NCBI GenBank assembly: GCA_000381625.1
Contig: KB906767.1
Location: 2,768,629 to 2,832,628 of the forward strand
Source of the DNA: Bryobacterales bacterium KBS 96
GTDB lineage: Bacteria > Acidobacteriota > Terriglobia > Bryobacterales > Bryobacteraceae
Reading direction: 5' to 3'
DNA: 64,000 nt
In this document: positions 38,688 through 47,853 of the stretch, piece by piece
Layout: the number at the start of each line of letters is the position of its first letter
Numbering within the stretch: position 1 is the first letter of the stretch
The notes under the pieces: generated by a model
What the model was told of the DNA's origin: nothing
Databases searched by the model: none
Seen by the model: the letters and a program-made list of their open reading frames with translations, nothing else
Made by a program: the position numbers and the translations under genes

Positions 38688-39155
38688 CTATAGGCCCCCC
38701 GCCGGATTGTACTGGCTGTCGATGCCGAAACCACTCGACACCTGATGGATTTCAGTCTGAATCTTCGCCCATTTTGAAGAGGTCTGCCCACCAAGCACGA
38801 CGCTTCGAAGCAGGCTGTCGATTTGCGCGGCGCTGTCCATCACCACCCTTATATCCGTATCGCCTTTCTTGGTGCGCTTAAAATTCTTGAGCATCGCATC
38901 GGTCTGTTTCTCAAATTGGGCGATCAGATTCTTTGCGTCCTTTTCACGACTGGTCTTCCGAATCGTGCTCTTTTTTATGGCCGAATCGAAAGTTCCGCGA
39001 AACGACTTGGCGTCGTCCCGCAGATTCTTCATCAGATTTTCCATATCTTTGTCGTTGACGCGGCCTTGGGCGTAAGTGAAACGGCCGCCAACAACTAAAA
39101 GCAAACTGAAGGCTACAACAAAACAAAAGGACCAATGGCGGCTAATTGTCCGCAT
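38688..39155 (-). CDS. Small secreted helical protein of unknown function
   Basis: 155 residues from ATG 39155 (GGAGGG upstream). Signal peptide 1-30 (FCFVVAFSLLLVVGGRFTYAQ), then a mostly alpha-helical charged region (NLMKNLRDDAKSFRGTFDSA, NLIAQFEKQTDAMLKNFK) with likely coiled-coil character. There are no cysteines in the mature part and no known domain. It lies 43 bases downstream of hpnD on the same strand and may be the last gene of the hopanoid transcript, though nothing ties it functionally. Confidence 0.65.
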   Translation of the reverse strand: MRTISRHWSFCFVVAFSLLLVVGGRFTYAQGRVNDKDMENLMKNLRDDAKSFRGTFDSAIKKSTIRKTSREKDAKNLIAQFEKQTDAMLKNFKRTKKGDTDIRVVMDSAAQIDSLLRSVVLGGQTSSKWAKIQTEIHQVSSGFGIDSQYNPAGGL

Positions 39156-39198
39156 ATTACCCTCCGGGGCCACTCAATCAGGCTCGTAATATCGTAAC

Positions 39199-40062
39199 CT
39201 ACCGTGGCCGGAACAAAAAAGCTCTAAGGAGCAACGCGATCTTGGTGCTTGTCGGCACGTTAATGCGGCGGCTCAAAACCGAATATTCGGAAGATTCAAT
39301 CCGCGAAAGAAGACGCATATAGATCTCACGAAGCGCCCACAGCGATGGCCGGCTCTGCTTGTGGATCAACGCTTCGAGACCTGCCGATTCATCGTAATAC
39401 TTGCGCGCGCGCCCCGCCTCGAAACGCATGAATTCGCGAAAGCCTTCCGTCTCCGTTCCGTCTTTCAATTGATCCGCGGTAACTCCAAAACGTTCGAGAT
39501 CTTCGGCCGGCAGATATACCCGTCCCAGATCCGCGTCTTCGCGGACATCCCGAATGATATTAGTTAACTGAAAGGCCACGCCGCATTTTTCGGCAAGCAT
39601 TAGCGCCTTCATCGATTCGAACCCAAAAATATAAATAACCGTCAATCCGACGACCGACGCAACCTGGTAACAGTAGCGATACAGTTCATCGAATGTCTGC
39701 ATGGTCCGCGGCTCGAGATCCGACGAGATCCCCTCGATCATCTCGAAAAAGAACCGGTGCGGAATCTTGTACCGCTGCACCGTGTCGTGAAACGCCGGCC
39801 ACATTGCATTGTTCCCGAATTCTCCGGCCAATGCCCAGCGCAATTCGACGCGCCAGTTTACTATTTTTTCGCGGAGTTCCGATGTCCCGCCGGCCGCCGG
39901 CTCGTCACTCAGGTCGTCACAATACCGGTTGAACGCATACACCGCGCACATCGCGTCGCGCCGTGGCTTGTCGAGCAGCAGAAATGAATAATAAAAATTC
40001 TTTGCACGGGACCGAGCGACCTTGCGGCAGTATTCGTATGACTCTTCGAGCGAGACCGCCAT
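39199..40062 (-). CDS. hpnD: Presqualene diphosphate synthase HpnD
   Basis: 287 residues from ATG 40062, two bases after the hpnC stop; longer in-frame starts lie inside hpnC. It is a head-to-head prenyl synthase: NRYCDDLSDE (first Asp-rich motif), YCYQVASVVGLTVIYIFG, QLTNIIRDVREDADLGRVYLP (second motif). HpnD joins two farnesyl diphosphates to presqualene diphosphate. With HpnC it is the squalene route found in many hopanoid producers; HpnE, which finishes squalene, is not seen here. It is the last recognised hpn gene of the operon. Confidence 0.93.
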   Translation of the reverse strand: MAVSLEESYEYCRKVARSRAKNFYYSFLLLDKPRRDAMCAVYAFNRYCDDLSDEPAAGGTSELREKIVNWRVELRWALAGEFGNNAMWPAFHDTVQRYKIPHRFFFEMIEGISSDLEPRTMQTFDELYRYCYQVASVVGLTVIYIFGFESMKALMLAEKCGVAFQLTNIIRDVREDADLGRVYLPAEDLERFGVTADQLKDGTETEGFREFMRFEAGRARKYYDESAGLEALIHKQSRPSLWALREIYMRLLSRIESSEYSVLSRRINVPTSTKIALLLRAFLFRPR

Positions 40063-40064
40063 CG

Positions 40065-40979
40065 TCAACGCACAATCAGACGCGGAAGGCAGCGGAGCAA
40101 AATCGCCGCGCGTTCCCATTTTGAAATTGCCGGACGGGCCTTCAATACGTTATAGTTTCGCTCACGGATCTTGCGCAAAACGCGCATGCCGCCGCGGCTG
40201 AAGAGTTCTAGGTCGAGCGCGAGCCGGCGGTCCACTGTTGCGATCAGCGGGAGACCGCGATCGAAAAGGTCCTGGGCAACATCCACCGCTTCGCGCATCG
40301 CACGTTCGAAGCGTACATCGAAGTGACTCGCAAATAACTCTTCTTCCGTGTACTCGTGCTTTCGAAGTAGGGCTAGCGGCAGATACACGCGATCTTTGGC
40401 CGCGTCTACCGTCACATCCTGCCAGAAATTCGCGAGTTGCAGCGCCGTACATGTGTAGTCTGATAGCCGCTGCCGTTCTTCATCCCGATAACCGCCGAGG
40501 TAGAGCACTAAGTGGCCGACGGGATTCGCCGAGTTCACGCAGTAGCCGAACACATCTTGCCAGTTTTCGTACCGGGTGACGCGCTGGTCTTGTTCAAACG
40601 CTTGAATCAGGCGGTCGAACGGATCCATCGGAATGTCGAATTTGCGAACCGTGGAGCGCAGTGCCACAAACACCGGGTGCGACGCATTCCCGTTATACAT
40701 CGCCTGCAGCTCGCCGCGCCACCACGCCAGCAGTTTCAGACTCTGCTCGCGATCGCCGATCTCATCTCCCAAATCGTCCGCCCAGCGGCAGAAGGAGTAC
40801 ACGTTATAGAAATCCTGGTGCAGGTGTTTGGGAAGCAAAAAGCTGACAACCTGGAAATTCTCGTAGTGATGTGTCGCCAGCCAGTGCGTATACGCGAGCG
40901 CTTCGGCTTCGGAATAAGCGGTCGAATCCGGCGTCATCCGCGCTACGTAGTCTTTGGGCTGAAGATAAGCGACGGCCAT
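40065..40979 (-). CDS. hpnC: Hydroxysqualene synthase HpnC
   Basis: 304 residues, same fold as HpnD with HpnC-type motifs: HHYENFQVVSFLLPK near residue 37, SFCRWADDLGDEIGD, YCVNSANPVGHLVLY, and ANFWQDVTVDAAKDRVYLP. HpnC converts presqualene diphosphate to hydroxysqualene with loss of diphosphate. It lies 11 bases after the upstream dehydrogenase and two bases before hpnD, so the three are clearly in one operon. Confidence 0.93.
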   Translation of the reverse strand: MAVAYLQPKDYVARMTPDSTAYSEAEALAYTHWLATHHYENFQVVSFLLPKHLHQDFYNVYSFCRWADDLGDEIGDREQSLKLLAWWRGELQAMYNGNASHPVFVALRSTVRKFDIPMDPFDRLIQAFEQDQRVTRYENWQDVFGYCVNSANPVGHLVLYLGGYRDEERQRLSDYTCTALQLANFWQDVTVDAAKDRVYLPLALLRKHEYTEEELFASHFDVRFERAMREAVDVAQDLFDRGLPLIATVDRRLALDLELFSRGGMRVLRKIRERNYNVLKARPAISKWERAAILLRCLPRLIVR

Positions 40980-40990
40980 AGTCTCGCGAG

Positions 40991-42040
40991 CTAAGGAATG
41001 ATGGCCGTCTTGATGTGGCCGTTCGGCTTCATCAGGTCGCGCATCACTTTTAGCAGATTATCGAGCGGCTCCTCGCGGTTCACCAGGTAATCGGACGTGA
41101 CCTTGCCGCTCTGCACGGCGTGCAGAGAACGCCGGATGTGATCGGGGGTGTGATGAAAGCTCGCCCTACACGTGATGTCGGAGTAGTGGAGCAATTGGGT
41201 ATCCAGCCCGACGCGGGTTCCTGCCGGACATCCGCCAAAGAAATTGATGACGCCGCCTTTGCGCACCAGTTGAGGGGCAAGTTCCCAGGTTTCCGGCAAG
41301 CCAATAGCCTCTATCGTCAGGTCGGCTCCCCGCCCGTCCGTCTGCCGGCGCAGCTCCGTTATTGTGCTTTGCGGATTCTGAAGATCCAGAATCACACCGT
41401 CGTCCGCGCCTAATCGAATGGCGTTATCGATCTGGGACTGTCGCCTCGCAATCGCAATCACACGCGCATTCAAAACAGCTTTCGCCATGCGGACAAACAT
41501 CAGGCCGATCGGACCCAGTCCCATCACCGCAACCGTATCGCCGGGCAGCACGTTGCATTCATCCAGCCCGCGAAGCACGCAGGCAAGCGGCTCCACCAGC
41601 GCGGCGTCCTGGTAGCTCAGGTGCGGCGGAATCTCATACGTATTCTTCTCCACGATTCGCGCGGGAATGTGGATGAACTCGGCATACGCGCCATTGTTAA
41701 ACAGCAGGTCTTCACAGAGATTCAACTGGCCGCGCCTGCAAAAGAAGCAGTTCCCGCAAGGCGCGGAGTTCGCCGCCACTACTCGCTGGCCGACGCGAAA
41801 CCGGGTGACGCCATCCCCAACGGCCGCCACGTCGCCAGCCAGTTCGTGACCAAACAACGCAGGCGGCACAATCATCTTTGCGTGGTACCCGCGCCGAAAA
41901 ACCTTGACGTCCGTGCCGCACGTCAGGGCGGTTCGGACGCGAATCAATATCTCGCCCGCGCCCACCGCCGGAACCGGCACCGATTCCAGGCGCACGTCTT
42001 CCTTGCCGTAAAGAACCGCCGCCCTCATCGTCGAGCCCAT
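40991..42040 (-). CDS. Zinc-dependent medium-chain dehydrogenase, NADP-type (hopanoid operon)
   Basis: 349 residues from ATG 42040 (MGSTMRAAVL), one base after the upstream stop; ATG 42028 is possible. It is a sorbitol/threonine dehydrogenase-like MDR: catalytic zinc at CGTDVKVF and GHELAGDV, structural zinc at PCGNCFFCRRGQLNLC, Rossmann motif GLGPIGLMF. After strand 2 it reads IAIARRQSQ, with no acidic residue and two Arg, favouring NADP(H). These enzymes interconvert alcohols and aldehydes/ketones. Its place between hpnG and hpnC suggests work on hopanoid side chains or squalene precursors; not proven. Confidence 0.88.
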   Translation of the reverse strand: MGSTMRAAVLYGKEDVRLESVPVPAVGAGEILIRVRTALTCGTDVKVFRRGYHAKMIVPPALFGHELAGDVAAVGDGVTRFRVGQRVVAANSAPCGNCFFCRRGQLNLCEDLLFNNGAYAEFIHIPARIVEKNTYEIPPHLSYQDAALVEPLACVLRGLDECNVLPGDTVAVMGLGPIGLMFVRMAKAVLNARVIAIARRQSQIDNAIRLGADDGVILDLQNPQSTITELRRQTDGRGADLTIEAIGLPETWELAPQLVRKGGVINFFGGCPAGTRVGLDTQLLHYSDITCRASFHHTPDHIRRSLHAVQSGKVTSDYLVNREEPLDNLLKVMRDLMKPNGHIKTAIIP

Positions 42041-42041
42041 A

Positions 42042-43106
42042 TCAGTTAGACTCCTGCGGATGAACAACGACCTTCAGAGATCTCTCGCCGGGATGGAGCG
42101 CCGTATCGATGCCTTGCCGGATGCAATTGAGCGGCACGCGATGCGAAATCAGCTTCTCGAGCGGCAAATCACCGCTGAACACAAGCCGCGCGGACTCAGC
42201 CTGCAGATCGACGTCCGCGCTGTAGGACCCCAATAGCATGCGTTCTCCCACACAGATGTCGGCGCCCGAAATCTCCACGCGTTCGGCGACGGACGTTTGT
42301 GCAAAGAGCAGCACCTTTGCGCCCGGCCGCGAAATTTTCAGTGCTTGATCCACGAGGCCCTTTGCGTTCGTCGCCACAATGACTGCATCGGCGCCTCGGC
42401 CCGATGTCCTCTCTTTTAGGGTACGCTCAAAGGCGGCGGTTCGGGGGTCGATTGCAATCGCGCCAAATTGCGAAGAAAGATCCAACCGGAAAGGGATGGT
42501 GTCCGAAGCAATCGCGGTTGCGCCTGTCCGCAGGGCGAGCATCGTGAAAATAAGACCGATCGGGCCTTGGCCGAGCACCGCAACGGTTTCGTCCGGCGCC
42601 AGATTTAGCATCGAAACGCCCTTCAGGCAGGTATTGACAGGCTCCACCCAACATGCCTGGTCGAAACTTACGCCTTCGGGGATGATCTCGATTCCTCGTT
42701 CGACGATCCAGTCCATGGCGCGGACGTATTGTGCAAATCCGCCGCCGGCTGGCTCATATCCCGCCGTGACTCCCACTTTCTTATAAACAGGACATTGCGC
42801 ATAGAGACGGCGATGACAGTAGAAACAATCTCCACAGGGGATATGATGGAAAACAATAACGCGGTCACCAACCCGAAACTTCCTCACGTCCGCTCCCGCC
42901 GCAACAATCACACCGGCAGTCTCATGCCCGTAAATTCGAGGACCTGGCAGAAGATCGTACTCGATCTTCTTTAGATCCGTGTGGCAAATGCCGCACGTCT
43001 CCACTCGAATCAGCACTTCGCCTGGTCCGGAAACGGGGACATCGATCTCCTCGACCGAAACGCGGCCTTCGCCCTGGTAGACAGCAGCTCGCATGGTTTC
43101 CGGCAT
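42042..43106 (-). CDS. Zinc-dependent medium-chain dehydrogenase, NAD-type (hopanoid operon)
   Basis: 354 residues from ATG 43106 (MPETMRAAVY), one base after hpnG. MDR motifs: CGICHTDLKK and GHETAGVI (catalytic zinc), PCGDCFYCHRRLYAQC (structural zinc), GQGPIGLIF (Rossmann). Strand 2 ends IASDTIPFR, where the Asp favours NAD(H), in contrast with its downstream neighbour. It is a paralogue of that gene at low identity. Being first after hpnG makes it a candidate for opening or reducing the ribosyl side chain, or oxidising the product; this is inference from position and chemistry. Confidence 0.88.
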   Translation of the reverse strand: MPETMRAAVYQGEGRVSVEEIDVPVSGPGEVLIRVETCGICHTDLKKIEYDLLPGPRIYGHETAGVIVAAGADVRKFRVGDRVIVFHHIPCGDCFYCHRRLYAQCPVYKKVGVTAGYEPAGGGFAQYVRAMDWIVERGIEIIPEGVSFDQACWVEPVNTCLKGVSMLNLAPDETVAVLGQGPIGLIFTMLALRTGATAIASDTIPFRLDLSSQFGAIAIDPRTAAFERTLKERTSGRGADAVIVATNAKGLVDQALKISRPGAKVLLFAQTSVAERVEISGADICVGERMLLGSYSADVDLQAESARLVFSGDLPLEKLISHRVPLNCIRQGIDTALHPGERSLKVVVHPQESN

Positions 43107-43107
43107 T

Positions 43108-43866
43108 CTATTGCCGCTGGTCTCCCGCCGGGGACTCGCTGAACTGAAATCTGCAACTTGCAAGAAATGCTCCCAACGCATCCGCGGCATCTTCGGATCG
43201 GCGCTTCAACTGAAAGAGGCGCGGCATAATACCCGGGTGCGTTAATGCGTAACTTACAATTTTCCCACGTGAGAACCGGCCGTCGGTAGTCCGCATCTTG
43301 TTGAAATCCATTACGAATTCTTCATCGAGGATATCCGTCACCACTTTGATGCAGCAGAAGGGCAAACCGGCTGCTGCTGTACGCTGGGCAACGCCCGCGG
43401 CCTCCATTTCGACGCCGATTGCGCCCGTCTCGGCGAGCTTTTTCTTCTCGGCAGAATTACCGGCGACGTGGTTTGCCGACACAATGAAGCCCTGTGTATG
43501 GGATGCGCCGCAATCGACCGGGCGGCACTCAAATTCCTTTCCGTCGTCAGTCGCCAGGATCTTCGAGGCCACCAGGATGTCACGCTCGTGGATGGCCGCC
43601 TCCAACGCGCCGCACAGGCCCGTGCTGACCACCGCTTCCAGTTTCGAAGCCGATAGTTCGGCCATGGACGTAGCCCTCAACGCTACCTCCACGCAGCGCG
43701 ATGCCAGTTTCGGCCCCGCGCCATTGGCGGCCAATAGAAAGCGCCTTCCTTCCCAAACGCCTTCTTCCGCATAATCGAGAGGCCATTTGAGCGGACGGCA
43801 TCCCGTCAATCGCTGGCCTAGCGGCTTTAGTTCAAAGGCTTCCGACGCAACGAACAAAATGGCCAT
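43108..43866 (-). CDS. hpnG: Hopanoid nucleoside phosphorylase HpnG
   Basis: 252 residues from ATG 43866 (MAILFVASEAFELKPL), two bases after hpnA. It belongs to the PNP/MTAP-UDP family: FLLAANGAGPKLASRCVE (phosphate/ribose-site region), VSTGLCGAL, GAIGVEMEAAGVAQ (the M-E ribose-binding motif) and CCIKVVTDILDE. HpnG removes adenine from adenosylhopane to give (phospho)ribosylhopane. Its partner HpnH, which makes adenosylhopane, is not in the window. The gene is translationally close to hpnA and the first dehydrogenase. Confidence 0.9.
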   Translation of the reverse strand: MAILFVASEAFELKPLGQRLTGCRPLKWPLDYAEEGVWEGRRFLLAANGAGPKLASRCVEVALRATSMAELSASKLEAVVSTGLCGALEAAIHERDILVASKILATDDGKEFECRPVDCGASHTQGFIVSANHVAGNSAEKKKLAETGAIGVEMEAAGVAQRTAAAGLPFCCIKVVTDILDEEFVMDFNKMRTTDGRFSRGKIVSYALTHPGIMPRLFQLKRRSEDAADALGAFLASCRFQFSESPAGDQRQ

Positions 43867-43868
43867 CG

Positions 43869-44843
43869 TTAACAGTATCCGTTCTCGCGAAACCACGCGA
43901 CGGCACGCTGTAGCGCCGCATCGACGGGACCCGGAGCGAAATCAAGCTCGCGCGATGCCTTGTCGTGAGTGACGAACATTTTCTTTCGCGCCATTTTGAC
44001 ACCCTCAAGTGGGATTCCCGGCGCCTTTCCAGTCACATTCGCCCATGCGGTACTCACTACACCCGCGGCATACGCGAGCGCGTACGGCGCCTTGGTTGTC
44101 GGGGCCTTCTTCCCGGTCAGAGCAGCCAATCGTGCCAAGATCTGCTGAAGGGTAAGATTTTCGCATCCGAGGATATAGCGTTCACCCATGCGGCCCCGCT
44201 CGCACGCGAGAAGATGCCCTTCGGCCGTATCGCGCACATCCACGAGATTCAGCCCTGTGTCGACGAATGCCGGCAATTTATCCTGCAAAAAATCCACGAT
44301 GATCTTCCCGGTCGGCGTCGGTTTCCAATCGTGATCACCAATCGGCGCTGTGGGATTTACGATTACCACCGGGAGGCCTCCGGCCGCTTCGTCGAGGGCT
44401 CTTTGCTCGGCAAGCCATTTCGACCGTTTGTAGTGCCCCGCCATGTCGGCCATGGATACGGGCGTATTTTCGTCACCGAGCCGATCCTTCGGCATGCCGA
44501 TGCAGCCGACCGTGCTGGTGTAGACCACGCGTTCGACTCGCGCACGCGCAGCGGCATCCAGCAGGTTGCGGGTGCCGTCGACGTTCGAGCGATAGAGATC
44601 ATCGGGATGTTTCGACCAAAGCCGGTAATCGGCCGCCACATGGAACACCAGTCCGCATCCTTGCACCGCATTTTGAAGCGAATCCCAGTCACGTAGGTCG
44701 CCGGAGACGCGCTCGACATCCAACTCACGCAACTGACTCGCGGGCCGGCACAAAGCCCGGACCCGATGGCCTCGCTCCACTAGCAAACGAGCCACATGCC
44801 ACCCCAGAAAACCGCTTGCGCCGGTCACGAGCGTGGGTTTCAC
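43869..44843 (-). CDS. hpnA: Hopanoid-associated NAD-dependent sugar epimerase HpnA
   Basis: 324 residues, extended SDR fold: TGASGFLGWHVARLL (NAD motif GxxGxxG), DLRDWDSL, YTSTVGCIGMP, and the catalytic HYKRSKWLAEQ (YxxxK). The C-terminal part (GKKAPTTKAPYALAYAAG, FVTHDKASRELDF) matches the HpnA group more than general epimerases. HpnA is regularly clustered with shc and hpnG and is thought to modify a hopanoid head group sugar, but its reaction is not settled. It starts 34 bases after the shc stop on the same strand. Confidence 0.88.
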   Translation of the reverse strand: MKPTLVTGASGFLGWHVARLLVERGHRVRALCRPASQLRELDVERVSGDLRDWDSLQNAVQGCGLVFHVAADYRLWSKHPDDLYRSNVDGTRNLLDAAARARVERVVYTSTVGCIGMPKDRLGDENTPVSMADMAGHYKRSKWLAEQRALDEAAGGLPVVIVNPTAPIGDHDWKPTPTGKIIVDFLQDKLPAFVDTGLNLVDVRDTAEGHLLACERGRMGERYILGCENLTLQQILARLAALTGKKAPTTKAPYALAYAAGVVSTAWANVTGKAPGIPLEGVKMARKKMFVTHDKASRELDFAPGPVDAALQRAVAWFRENGYC

Positions 44844-44877: not shown

Positions 44878-46809
44878 TCACAGATCCTCGCTCGACGTCT
44901 TCGCCTTCACGAAGGTAGCGAGTGCAAGCAGAGGAAACGTGTTGCGGTAATCGGTATAGGACAAATAAAAGACTTTGGGGAAACCGGTGCCTGTGGCGTA
45001 GTCCTCGTCCCAATCGCCATCGGGCCTTTGCCTTTCAATCAGATATTCGATCCCCTTGTGGAGGCTGATGCTGCGGACGTCGCCGCCGGCAAGCAACCCC
45101 AAAATGGCCCACGCGGTTTGCGACGCCGTGCTCGGGCCTGGAGTGAACGTGTTGTTGTCATAGCTGGCGCAACTTTCACCCCAGCCTCCATCGGCGTTCT
45201 GGTAGGCGCGGATCCATTCGAGAGCGCGCTGAATACAGGCTTCACGGTCGTTCACGCCCGCAGCCTGCAGGCCTCTTAAACTCAGGAACGTCCCGTAAAG
45301 GTAATCGACGCCCCAGCGGCCATACCAGCTTCCATCGGCCTCCTGCGTATCGAGTAGATAACGGATGCCGCGCTGTATTGCCGGATGGTCCGGCTTCATT
45401 CCCCAGCCGCACAGCGCTTCGAGGGTTCGCCCGGTGATATCCGGACACGACGGGTCGAGCATCGCGTTGTGGTCCGCAAACGGCACCTTACTCAGAAATT
45501 GCCAGTTGTTATCGACGTCGAACGCCGCCCAGCCGCCGTCGGAACCCTGCATCGCCAGCAGCCAGTTAACGGTGCGCTGTTCGCAAGCCTGCTGTTTCGC
45601 AGCATCTGAGCCGTGCGCCCGGTTTAAAGCGAGTAGCACCATCGCGGTGTCGTCGATATCCGGGTAGAACTCGTTCGCGAATTCGAAACACCAGCCGGAC
45701 GGCTCGACATTCGGACGCTTCACGCTCCAGTCGCCGCGGCGGCGAATTTCTTTCGAGAGCAGCCAATCCACCGCGCGCTGCATGGCTCCCTTCGGCATGG
45801 CGCCCGCTTCAGCTAATGCGAAAGCGGCAATCGCCGTATCCCACACAACCGAAAAACAGGGCTGAAAAAAGAATCCGCGCTCATCGTCGACTAGCAGACG
45901 GAAAAACTCATCGACCGCCGATTGGCGCATCGGGTCGTCCGGAGCATAGCCGAGGACGTCCAGCGCCATGATTGCGTATTGCATCGGCGGGTAAATCGCG
46001 CCAAGGCCATCCGTTCCTTCGAGACGCTCCAGCATCCATTCGGCGCATTTGTTCACCGCACGTTGGCGAACACTGCGCGGTCCGTGCTTCTCCCACTGCT
46101 TCAGCATCTTGTCCACAACCAGAAATAAATTGTGGACCGTGAACAGCTTTTCGTCGCGAGGCAGCGCAAGGGGTTTACCCGGCACATACAACTCATCGAG
46201 ATTGAAACCTTCGGGAACCGGCCGCCGTGGATTTGCGGAATGTACAATCGCGAGCGAAATCGCGATTGCCCGCGTCCACGACGACATCTGGTAGATCAAC
46301 TTGCCCGGAAGCAAAATCAATTCGGGTGGAATTGACGGGCATGCATCGCGCGGGAACAAATCGAACAGGCTCAGGTTAATTCGGACATAACTGTTAGCCG
46401 CCTGCAGGCCGCCTAACTCGAGAATGCGCTCGCACAGCCGCCGCATGCGCGAATCGTTTTGCGAAAGGCCGGCCACCTTGAGAGCGAAATACGCCTTGAC
46501 GCACGCGCTCACTTCCGCCGGCCCGTGCGGATAGATACTGAATCCGCCGTCGGGCAATTGACGCGCGAGGATAGATTGCACGGCCTTGTCGATGCGCTCT
46601 CGCGAAGGCGGATTCCAGACTCCGTCAACGGGCGGATGCATCCAAAGCTCGAGCAGAATGTAGTCGGATTCGAGCGTGGTGTCGGCAGTGAGGTCCGCCC
46701 ACCAGTACCCTTCCGCGTACTGCTTATCTAATAAAGCTTGGGAGGCGCGTTTGATTGCCTCGGCGGCACTTGCAATGAGACTGTCAGTAAGCTGTAGACT
46801 CGGCGTCAT
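44878..46809 (-). CDS. shc: Squalene-hopene cyclase
   Basis: 643 residues, full length for the family. Catalytic DXDD region: YPDIDDTAMVLLAL; QW repeats include QLPDGGFSIY, QGSDGGWAAF, QEADGSWYGRWGV, QNADGGWGESC and QRPDGDWDEDY, which brace the alpha/alpha barrel. The enzyme cyclises squalene to hopene/hopanol on the inner membrane face. It is the same gene as hpnF. It lies 15 bases downstream of ispH on the same strand, linking isoprenoid supply to hopanoid formation. Confidence 0.97.
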   Translation of the reverse strand: MTPSLQLTDSLIASAAEAIKRASQALLDKQYAEGYWWADLTADTTLESDYILLELWMHPPVDGVWNPPSRERIDKAVQSILARQLPDGGFSIYPHGPAEVSACVKAYFALKVAGLSQNDSRMRRLCERILELGGLQAANSYVRINLSLFDLFPRDACPSIPPELILLPGKLIYQMSSWTRAIAISLAIVHSANPRRPVPEGFNLDELYVPGKPLALPRDEKLFTVHNLFLVVDKMLKQWEKHGPRSVRQRAVNKCAEWMLERLEGTDGLGAIYPPMQYAIMALDVLGYAPDDPMRQSAVDEFFRLLVDDERGFFFQPCFSVVWDTAIAAFALAEAGAMPKGAMQRAVDWLLSKEIRRRGDWSVKRPNVEPSGWCFEFANEFYPDIDDTAMVLLALNRAHGSDAAKQQACEQRTVNWLLAMQGSDGGWAAFDVDNNWQFLSKVPFADHNAMLDPSCPDITGRTLEALCGWGMKPDHPAIQRGIRYLLDTQEADGSWYGRWGVDYLYGTFLSLRGLQAAGVNDREACIQRALEWIRAYQNADGGWGESCASYDNNTFTPGPSTASQTAWAILGLLAGGDVRSISLHKGIEYLIERQRPDGDWDEDYATGTGFPKVFYLSYTDYRNTFPLLALATFVKAKTSSEDL

Positions 46810-46824: not shown

Positions 46825-47853
46825 TTAAGCACGCGTTCCAACAGGATGCAGCTTCGGTACAAAAGTTTCAAGATCCGCCGGCAAGGTGAAGCGAACATCC
46901 TCTTCTTTAATTTCCGCTTCTTCCAATTCGGAGTAACCTTGACTCTTTAAATAATCAATCAGCTCCAAAACCAGATGCTCCGGAGCCGAAGCGCCCGCGG
47001 TAATCGCCACGGTCGTTACATTCTCCAGCATTCCTGGACGAATTTCGCTCTTATCGTCCAGCAAATAAGCCGGCACTCCCGACTTTTCGCAAACTTCAAC
47101 AAGCCGGCGTGAATTCGAACTGTTTTGTGAACCAACCACCAGTAATGCCTGGCAAAGCGGCGCCACTGCCTTCACGGCTAGCTGCCGATTCTCCGTCGCG
47201 TAGCAGATATCCTGGGTCTTCGGACCCATGATTTTCGGAAAACGCTCCATCAGCCGGCGCACAATGTCTTTCGTATCGTCCAATGAAAGCGTCGTTTGCG
47301 TGAGGTAGGAGACACGCTCGGGGTCTTTGAGTTCCAACCGGTCAACATCCGCCACGTCGGAAACCAGCACCATCGCGTCCGGAGCTTCGCCCAGCGTTCC
47401 GGTCACTTCGTCGTGGTCGCGGTGGCCAATCAGGACAATCGTATAACCCTGCTTTGCAAATCGAACCGCTTCCAAATGGACTTTCGTGACCAGCGGGCAG
47501 GTCGCGTCAATCACCTGTAGCCGCCGCTCGACAGCTTCGCGCCGAACAGCGGGCGAAACACCGTGCGCACTGAAGATAACGCGCGCCCCTTCCGGAGCTT
47601 CGCTCAATTCTTCGACAAAAATCGCGCCGGCTTGCCGCAGCTCTTCAACTACGTAGCGGTTGTGTACGATTTCCTTACGGACGTAGATTGGCGCACCGTA
47701 CAGATCGAGAGCAATCTTCACGACGTCTATCGCGCGAACCACTCCGGCGCAAAAGCCGCGCGGTTTAAGAAGAATAATCTTCTTCTGCGAGGCGGCTAAG
47801 GAAGCCATGCCGGTCGAGGTAGTGGAGTCAGACGCAAGGCCGGTCAAAGACAT
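46825..47853 (-). CDS. ispH: 4-Hydroxy-3-methylbut-2-enyl diphosphate reductase
   Basis: 342 residues (start ATG 47853, or 47808 giving MASLAASQ). The three Fe-S cysteines are in PRGFCAGVVRAI, IDATCPLV and TQDICYATENRQ. HRDHDEVTGTLGEAP holds the conserved His and TGT motif; SQNSSNSRRL binds diphosphate. IspH makes IPP and DMAPP in the last MEP step. It heads the hopanoid operon here. The C-terminus (residues about 305-342, ELEEAEIKEEDVRF) is an acidic extension. Confidence 0.96.
   Translation of the reverse strand: MSLTGLASDSTTSTGMASLAASQKKIILLKPRGFCAGVVRAIDVVKIALDLYGAPIYVRKEIVHNRYVVEELRQAGAIFVEELSEAPEGARVIFSAHGVSPAVRREAVERRLQVIDATCPLVTKVHLEAVRFAKQGYTIVLIGHRDHDEVTGTLGEAPDAMVLVSDVADVDRLELKDPERVSYLTQTTLSLDDTKDIVRRLMERFPKIMGPKTQDICYATENRQLAVKAVAPLCQALLVVGSQNSSNSRRLVEVCEKSGVPAYLLDDKSEIRPGMLENVTTVAITAGASAPEHLVLELIDYLKSQGYSELEEAEIKEEDVRFTLPADLETFVPKLHPVGTRA

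Follow-up and report, generated by a model that had tools for sequence, protein, structure and literature searches.

The window, a stretch of 64,000 nucleotides from Bryobacterales bacterium KBS 96, contains an eight-gene run on the minus strand with the order ispH-shc-hpnA-hpnG-MDRA-MDRB-hpnC-hpnD (Table 1), in which two genes for zinc-dependent medium-chain dehydrogenases/reductases (MDR), called here MDRA and MDRB, are embedded among the genes of hopanoid synthesis. These two dehydrogenases, and their possible place after HpnG in the metabolism of the hopanoid side chain, are the subject of this work. The initial annotation of the locus described a run read in one direction with gaps of 1-34 bases, and our check of open frames, starts and gaps agrees with it, the intergenic distances from ispH to hpnD being 15, 34, 2, 1, 1, 11 and 2 bases; hpnG and both MDR genes together fill positions 40991-43866.

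Table 1. Genes of the hopanoid run, with window positions, strand, product length in amino acids (aa) and grounds for the name
Gene	Position	Strand	Product and grounds
ispH	46825..47853	-	up to 342 aa; NCBIfam ispH equivalogs above cut-off
shc, squalene-hopene cyclase	44878..46809	-	643 aa; TIGR01507 657 bits, above cut-off
hpnA, hopanoid-associated short-chain dehydrogenase/reductase	43869..44843	-	324 aa; TIGR03466 467 bits, above cut-off
hpnG-like nucleosidase/phosphorylase	43108..43866	-	252 aa; TIGR03468 97.2 bits against cut-off 187.1; PF01048; gene context
MDRA, NAD-type zinc MDR	42042..43106	-	354 aa; probably "ug1", by position
MDRB, NADP-type zinc MDR	40991..42040	-	349 aa; probably "ug2"
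hpnC	40065..40979	-	304 aa; TIGR03464 333 bits, above cut-off
hpnD-like	39199..40062	-	287 aa; TIGR03465 250 bits, below cut-off 278.6; gene context

Both dehydrogenases carry ADH_N and ADH_zinc_N domains (PF08240, 88 bits in each; PF00107, 65 bits in MDRB and 52 bits in MDRA) and belong by domains, zinc ligands and fold to the polyol/threonine dehydrogenase branch of the zinc MDRs; the two window proteins are 32% identical to one another. The ligands are invariant across 18 MDRA rows (alignment A1: C31, H51, E52, E145; C81, C84, C87, C95) and 15 MDRB rows (alignment A2: C38, H62, E63, E147; C92, C95, C98, C106), and align with those of the solved structure 1e3j; we take the Cys, His-Glu and Glu to hold the catalytic zinc and the four Cys the structural one. 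Predicted models (pLDDT 94.2 for MDRA and 92.2 for MDRB) have ordinary MDR folds, with TM scores of 0.79-0.90 to the listed solved MDRs. An acid at the end of strand beta-2 is a sign of NAD use, and its lack together with basic residues is a sign of NADP use. In MDRA this position is Asp in 17 of the 18 rows and Glu in one, and the Asp is invariant in a 35-row alignment; MDRB has no acid there and Lys or Arg immediately after, also when aligned with 1e3j. MDRA thus looks NAD-type and MDRB NADP-type, and the cofactor assignment of the initial annotation extends across the alignments. Neither protein scores above the cut-off of any NCBIfam equivalog: the best models for both, scyllo-inosose 3-dehydrogenase IolM and L-threonine 3-dehydrogenase, give 125-162 bits, at most 161.7 against 450 and 158.7 against 458, far under cut-offs of 380-458 bits.

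The association of the pair with hopanoid genes is not peculiar to the window. A profile scan with MDRA over 84,980 species genomes found at least 544 relatives, of which the best 80, picked by closeness to MDRA, were kept. Hopanoid (hpn) genes surround MDRA in all 80 of these best loci, MDRB is the next gene in all 74 that have a called gene downstream, and HpnG lies upstream in 79, the remaining locus ending at a contig end. All but two of the 80 have acidobacterial titles; those two, titled as metagenome-assembled genomes (MAGs) of Bordetella parapertussis (L179) and of Acidimicrobiia (L186), carry an acidobacterial-type hpn operon, and their titles look wrong. The other samples were of Acidobacteria: 297 genomes from the phylum and 245 from the class of the window. 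In a second set, picked by HpnG and made up of 100 regions around the better HpnG matches of the 297 genomes, 32 regions contain MDRA, and HpnG is found no more than 170 bases upstream of it in 30; the exceptions are L049, with a called gene intervening, and L145, with HpnG downstream. The neighbourhood that the initial annotation wished to see surveyed in related genomes is therefore conserved. Genes were called by codon usage, and some HpnG and HpnA genes missed by the caller were recovered by profile or tblastn; the lower-GC genome G267 was read by tblastn, and loci L304 and L305 were left out of the reading of gene order. The linkage survives rearrangement, since in several genomes of family f2 the cluster is split and MDRA is kept by hpnA-hpnG and MDRB by hpnC-hpnD. 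In family f28 (five loci: L145, L315-L318) HpnA adjoins MDRA with no HpnG between them.

The place of MDRB in f2 may suggest another function, namely that it works in squalene synthesis or replaces hpnE. In the nine f2 loci fetched for MDRB (L306-L314) it stands directly before hpnC-hpnD, and hpnE comes next in eight; substitution for hpnE had also been considered in the initial annotation, which took this gene for absent. It is, however, present in the same genome outside the window (G000:C1:3079377-3080645, scoring 460 bits where the cut-off is 283), so that the supposed absence was an error and the substitution falls. Participation of MDRB in squalene synthesis is very improbable in our opinion, as hpnE accompanies MDRB in the eight f2 loci, no squalene step is evident for an alcohol dehydrogenase, and squalene can be made with HpnC, HpnD and HpnE alone (PMC5462960, citing Pan et al. 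2015).

Co-occurrence points in the same direction as gene order. MDRA profile scores are bimodal in the phylum sample: 46 genomes score at least 474 bits and all others no more than 275. MDRB reaches at least 460 bits in 48 genomes, including all 46 with MDRA. Shc is found in 43 of the 46, those without it being G282 and G211, both less than 90% complete, and G221, which is 100% complete. In the class sample, 174 genomes have both MDRA and Shc, 2 only MDRA, 29 only Shc and 40 neither; MDRA is thus present in 174 of 203 genomes with Shc versus 2 of 42 without it (Fisher p about 1e-24, uncorrected for kinship), and the two MDRA-only genomes are 81% and 79% complete. In this class MDRA is rarely met without the cyclase, yet the cyclase does occur without MDRA. 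Mere chance neighbourhood is ruled out by this co-occurrence and by the synteny in the best 80 loci.

The shc locus was examined in 20 of the 29 class genomes that have only Shc. The absence of MDRA is uninformative where the contig breaks off at HpnA or HpnG or shortly beyond (G273, G418, G437, G494, G348, G323), or shortly after Shc (G349, G415). Two genomes of family f86 (G302, G335) have HpnA-HpnG-MDRB-HpnC and lack MDRA from the whole genome, and MDRB therefore outlasts MDRA at two loci. Together with G132, in which an MDRB-type gene scores 500 bits and MDRA is missing at the threshold of 474 bits, they rule out an obligate partnership of the two enzymes. Three further genomes, of the phylum sample (G096, G123, G165), have Shc, HpnH and, at 366-374 bits, a distantly related B-type gene, and lack MDRA. 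Elsewhere shc stands beside ispH with no hpnH, hpnA or hpnG alongside (G307, G367 and G385 of f84, and G316 of f86) or alone on a contig of 3.9 kb (G352 of f87). In the 100% complete f2 genome G007 (L319), ispH-shc-hpnH is followed by no hpnA beside hpnH, and no hpnG, hpnC or MDR of either type was detected in the genome, as if these genes were lost as one block, or fell into an assembly gap.

According to a maximum-likelihood tree of 80 rows, MDRA and MDRB form two sister sets. Other acidobacterial families (f32, f60, f34, f45, f25, f47 and f66) have MDR pairs of their own, and one member of these pairs groups with each set. Close relatives of both also occur outside hpn loci in f39 (G066, G221). 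Directly before the f39 pair (L286, L287; scanned in L286) lies a proline dehydrogenase gene, assigned by scan in G066 and matched in G221 by the same length and a like start; near the pair in L287 there is a pyrimidine-nucleoside phosphorylase by scan and a nucleoside transporter by eye. In f47 (L299-L301) the next genes after the related pair, read in the same direction, encode a chorismate mutase/prephenate dehydratase fusion and an FAD-dependent oxidoreductase; they were identified by scan in L299, and the other two loci have the same layout. The neighbours of the pairs outside hpn loci have no common theme. The most economical reading of this pattern would be that an ancient pair of acidobacterial dehydrogenases was taken into the hpn operon at a later time; alternatively, a transfer out of the operon into f39 may have happened, as the branching of A there is unsettled in the tree.

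Cell-free reduction in Methylobacterium organophilum was reportedly, by the title of the study, described by Bodlenner in 2015. HpnG is held to give ribosylhopane, and the enzyme turning this into bacteriohopanetetrol (BHT) was still not established in 2025 (PMC12583986), as had been assumed when the locus was initially annotated. We propose that, after HpnG has removed adenine, MDRA and MDRB would act on the C35 side chain. The likeliest single step would be an NADPH-dependent reduction of ribosylhopane to BHT by MDRB, and MDRA may perform an NAD-type conversion on the same side chain, such as equilibration of the sugar via a keto form or the reverse oxidation. MDRB is favoured over MDRA because it follows HpnG directly, without MDRA, in the two f86 loci, and because its nearest outside relatives seen in plasmid records sit in sugar/polyol operons; position, cofactor type and polyol kinship thus make MDRB the good candidate and MDRA its companion. 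Our observations cover the domain family, the zinc ligands and their conservation, the predicted fold, the cofactor signature, gene order, its conservation and co-occurrence, whereas the role in the hopanoid pathway, the stage of the side chain and the reaction are inferred and are not equally firm. A role of the pair in the hopanoid metabolism of this class is very probable, an action on the side chain is probable to a lesser degree, and that the pair includes the ribosylhopane reductase is a possibility which we put slightly below an even chance. Taken as a whole, the reading that MDRA and MDRB are paralogous zinc MDRs of an old acidobacterial pair, recruited to hopanoid side-chain metabolism with MDRB as the likelier ribosylhopane reductase, is put forward tentatively.

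Several points weigh against a ribosylhopane reductase in this pair. MDRs of the sorbitol-dehydrogenase type interconvert polyols and ketoses, and usually not aldoses; the aldose/polyol chemistry with which the initial annotation credited them is not supported as worded, and an isomerised substrate may therefore be needed. The distribution is patchy as well. Among the genomes of the phylum sample with both Shc and HpnH, MDRA is present in 42 of 75 and was not found in 33, one of which (G273) ends at a contig end, so that universal presence with the C35 gene set in the lineage was not observed, these counts being of MDRA and of the gene set, not of lipids. Shc-HpnH-HpnA-HpnG is followed by no MDR at the locus in G342 and G362 (f87) and in G457 (f84), and in G341 (f86) no MDR occurs in the 1.5 kb after a short HpnG frame; these four are MAGs of 72-88% completeness, in which MDRB was looked for at the locus only. 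Since HpnH-HpnA-HpnG loci occur without MDRA, MDRA is not indispensable to the C35 gene set. C. thermophilum, which lacks ug2, the gene that by position corresponds to MDRB, produces BHT as well as its cyclitol ether (PMC5462960), and a survey of alphaproteobacteria saw no other evident candidate gene beside the hpn cluster (PMC12583986). As there are other BHT makers without these genes, the enzyme would be lineage-specific. The expectation of the initial annotation is in this way partly upheld, by the position, by the cofactor types and by the polyol kin of MDRB, and partly weakened, by patchy presence, by the pairs outside hpn loci and by ketose chemistry; what had been named as fatal to it, a general lack of MDRs in BHT-making hpn genomes, is seen in part, in the 33 genomes and in C. 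thermophilum.

The retention of HpnH-HpnA-HpnG in MDRA-free genomes would also agree with a side-chain function other than the core reduction, in which HpnA or a general aldose reductase takes care of ribosylhopane and the pair modifies the side chain in a way specific to its clade, for instance by redox epimerisation or by oxidising a BHT hydroxyl. HpnA adjoins HpnG at loci with and without MDRs, the combination of an NAD-type and an NADP-type enzyme suits a redox loop, and HpnA has been floated for the missing reduction step (PMC5462960). Such a function is nevertheless rather unlikely, as no clade-specific side chain is known, the reported bacteriohopanepolyols being mostly plain tetrafunctionalised ones (PMC5462960), and HpnA is regarded as not essential, being absent in 6 of 48 hpnH genomes (PMC12583986).

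Other facts, also unfavourable to a reductase, could mean that the two proteins are ordinary polyol or sugar dehydrogenases, whose place in the operon has regulatory or historical causes and which do not touch hopanoids at all. Related pairs occupy non-hopanoid settings, beside proline dehydrogenase in f39 and chorismate mutase/prephenate dehydratase in f47; in four of the seven families that join the tree (f60, f34, f45, f25) the genome examined has neither Shc nor HpnH; G221 carries the pair without Shc and HpnH and keeps HpnC with a second HpnC-family gene; and in G066 hopanoid genes are present with the MDR pair elsewhere, by proline dehydrogenase. We consider this explanation quite improbable in view of the hpn linkage in the best 80 of at least 544 loci, the presence of Shc in 174 of the 176 MDRA genomes of the class sample, and the persistence of the MDRs with hpn genes after cluster rearrangement in f2.

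Recruitment to the side chain, with MDRB as the reductase, leads to a wider suggestion, somewhat less secure than the reductase assignment, that MDRB, with or without MDRA, could be the first ribosylhopane-to-BHT reductase assigned at the gene level, and that unrelated enzymes carry out BHT formation in different bacterial lineages, which, if true, would account for the failure to find one universal gene next to hpnG. The MDRs are good, testable and not universal candidates for the enzyme after HpnG. They provide two defined proteins for an enzyme that is not established, in a group with cultured members, and natural variants are on hand that have both genes, MDRB only, or no MDR beside hpnG. 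Hopanes, the fossil form of hopanoids, are used to read ancient bacterial life. Even if the reductase assignment proves false, the pair still marks an unexplained and strongly linked part of hopanoid metabolism.

Some features around the run deserve mention. The name of HpnG in the window is owed mainly to gene context, because the profile score is below the cut-off here and throughout the phylum sample, TIGR03468 giving no match above the cut-off in the 297 genomes and matches at 1e-8 in 114. The sole above-cut-off hpnH of this genome stands apart from the operon and outside the window (G000:C1:2683683-2684633, 548 bits); in a comparison that took in loci L046 and L114, it shares 69-79% identity with hpnH of family f2 and only 38-39% with the in-operon hpnH of genomes of its own family (G289, G187), as if the original copy might have been replaced by a transferred one. 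After hpnD, on the same strand, a 161-aa frame with a signal-like start (window 38688-39173) has no Pfam or NCBIfam match at 0.001.

The location of both genes has been known before. A 2017 paper described ug1 after hpnA-hpnG and ug2 before hpnC in acidobacterial clusters as genes of unknown function; ug2, with a product of about 350 aa, frequently carries the annotation of a Zn-binding alcohol dehydrogenase and occurs in every SD1 and SD3 genome of that study (PMC5462960). These positions match those of MDRA and MDRB, after hpnG and before hpnC, the identity being by position alone and not by sequence; the main-text passages of that paper give no product for ug1 and no role for either gene, and recognise only hpnA-hpnG-ug1 in SD3, whereas the named Bryobacterales/Solibacter loci seen here have a longer run. 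A search of open-licence literature returned no assignment of hopanoid-linked MDR, sorbitol, alcohol or zinc-binding dehydrogenases or of a ribosylhopane reductase. What is new is the family assignment, the history of the pair and the test cases.

Outside Acidobacteria, relatives of MDRB were sought in plasmid records, where the matches listed have 45% identity or less. The nearest is a zinc-binding dehydrogenase of Rhodococcus opacus pLPS8 (45% identity over 97%), which has a DeoR regulator on one side and a class II aldolase on the other, with an FGGY kinase nearby, in what is by annotation a sugar/polyol-type operon; unlike MDRB, it has no MDR partner or hpn gene annotated nearby, and its function is known by annotation only. 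Two further relatives of 35% identity in these records lie in sugar loci. In a search of the PDB, no close homologue characterised for an unrelated substrate came up for either MDR, an outcome that leaves the initial proposal standing; the best relatives, of about 24-32% identity, are a putative dehydrogenase, a ketose reductase and an alcohol dehydrogenase. The best solved relative of MDRA is 4ej6, a putative zinc-binding dehydrogenase of Sinorhizobium meliloti (30% identity, TM 0.86-0.88), for which the listing names no function. For MDRB, the whitefly NADP(H)-dependent ketose reductase/sorbitol dehydrogenase 1e3j, at 29% identity and likened to it by fold and sequence only, is the best fold match (TM 0.89) and shares its zinc-ligand positions.

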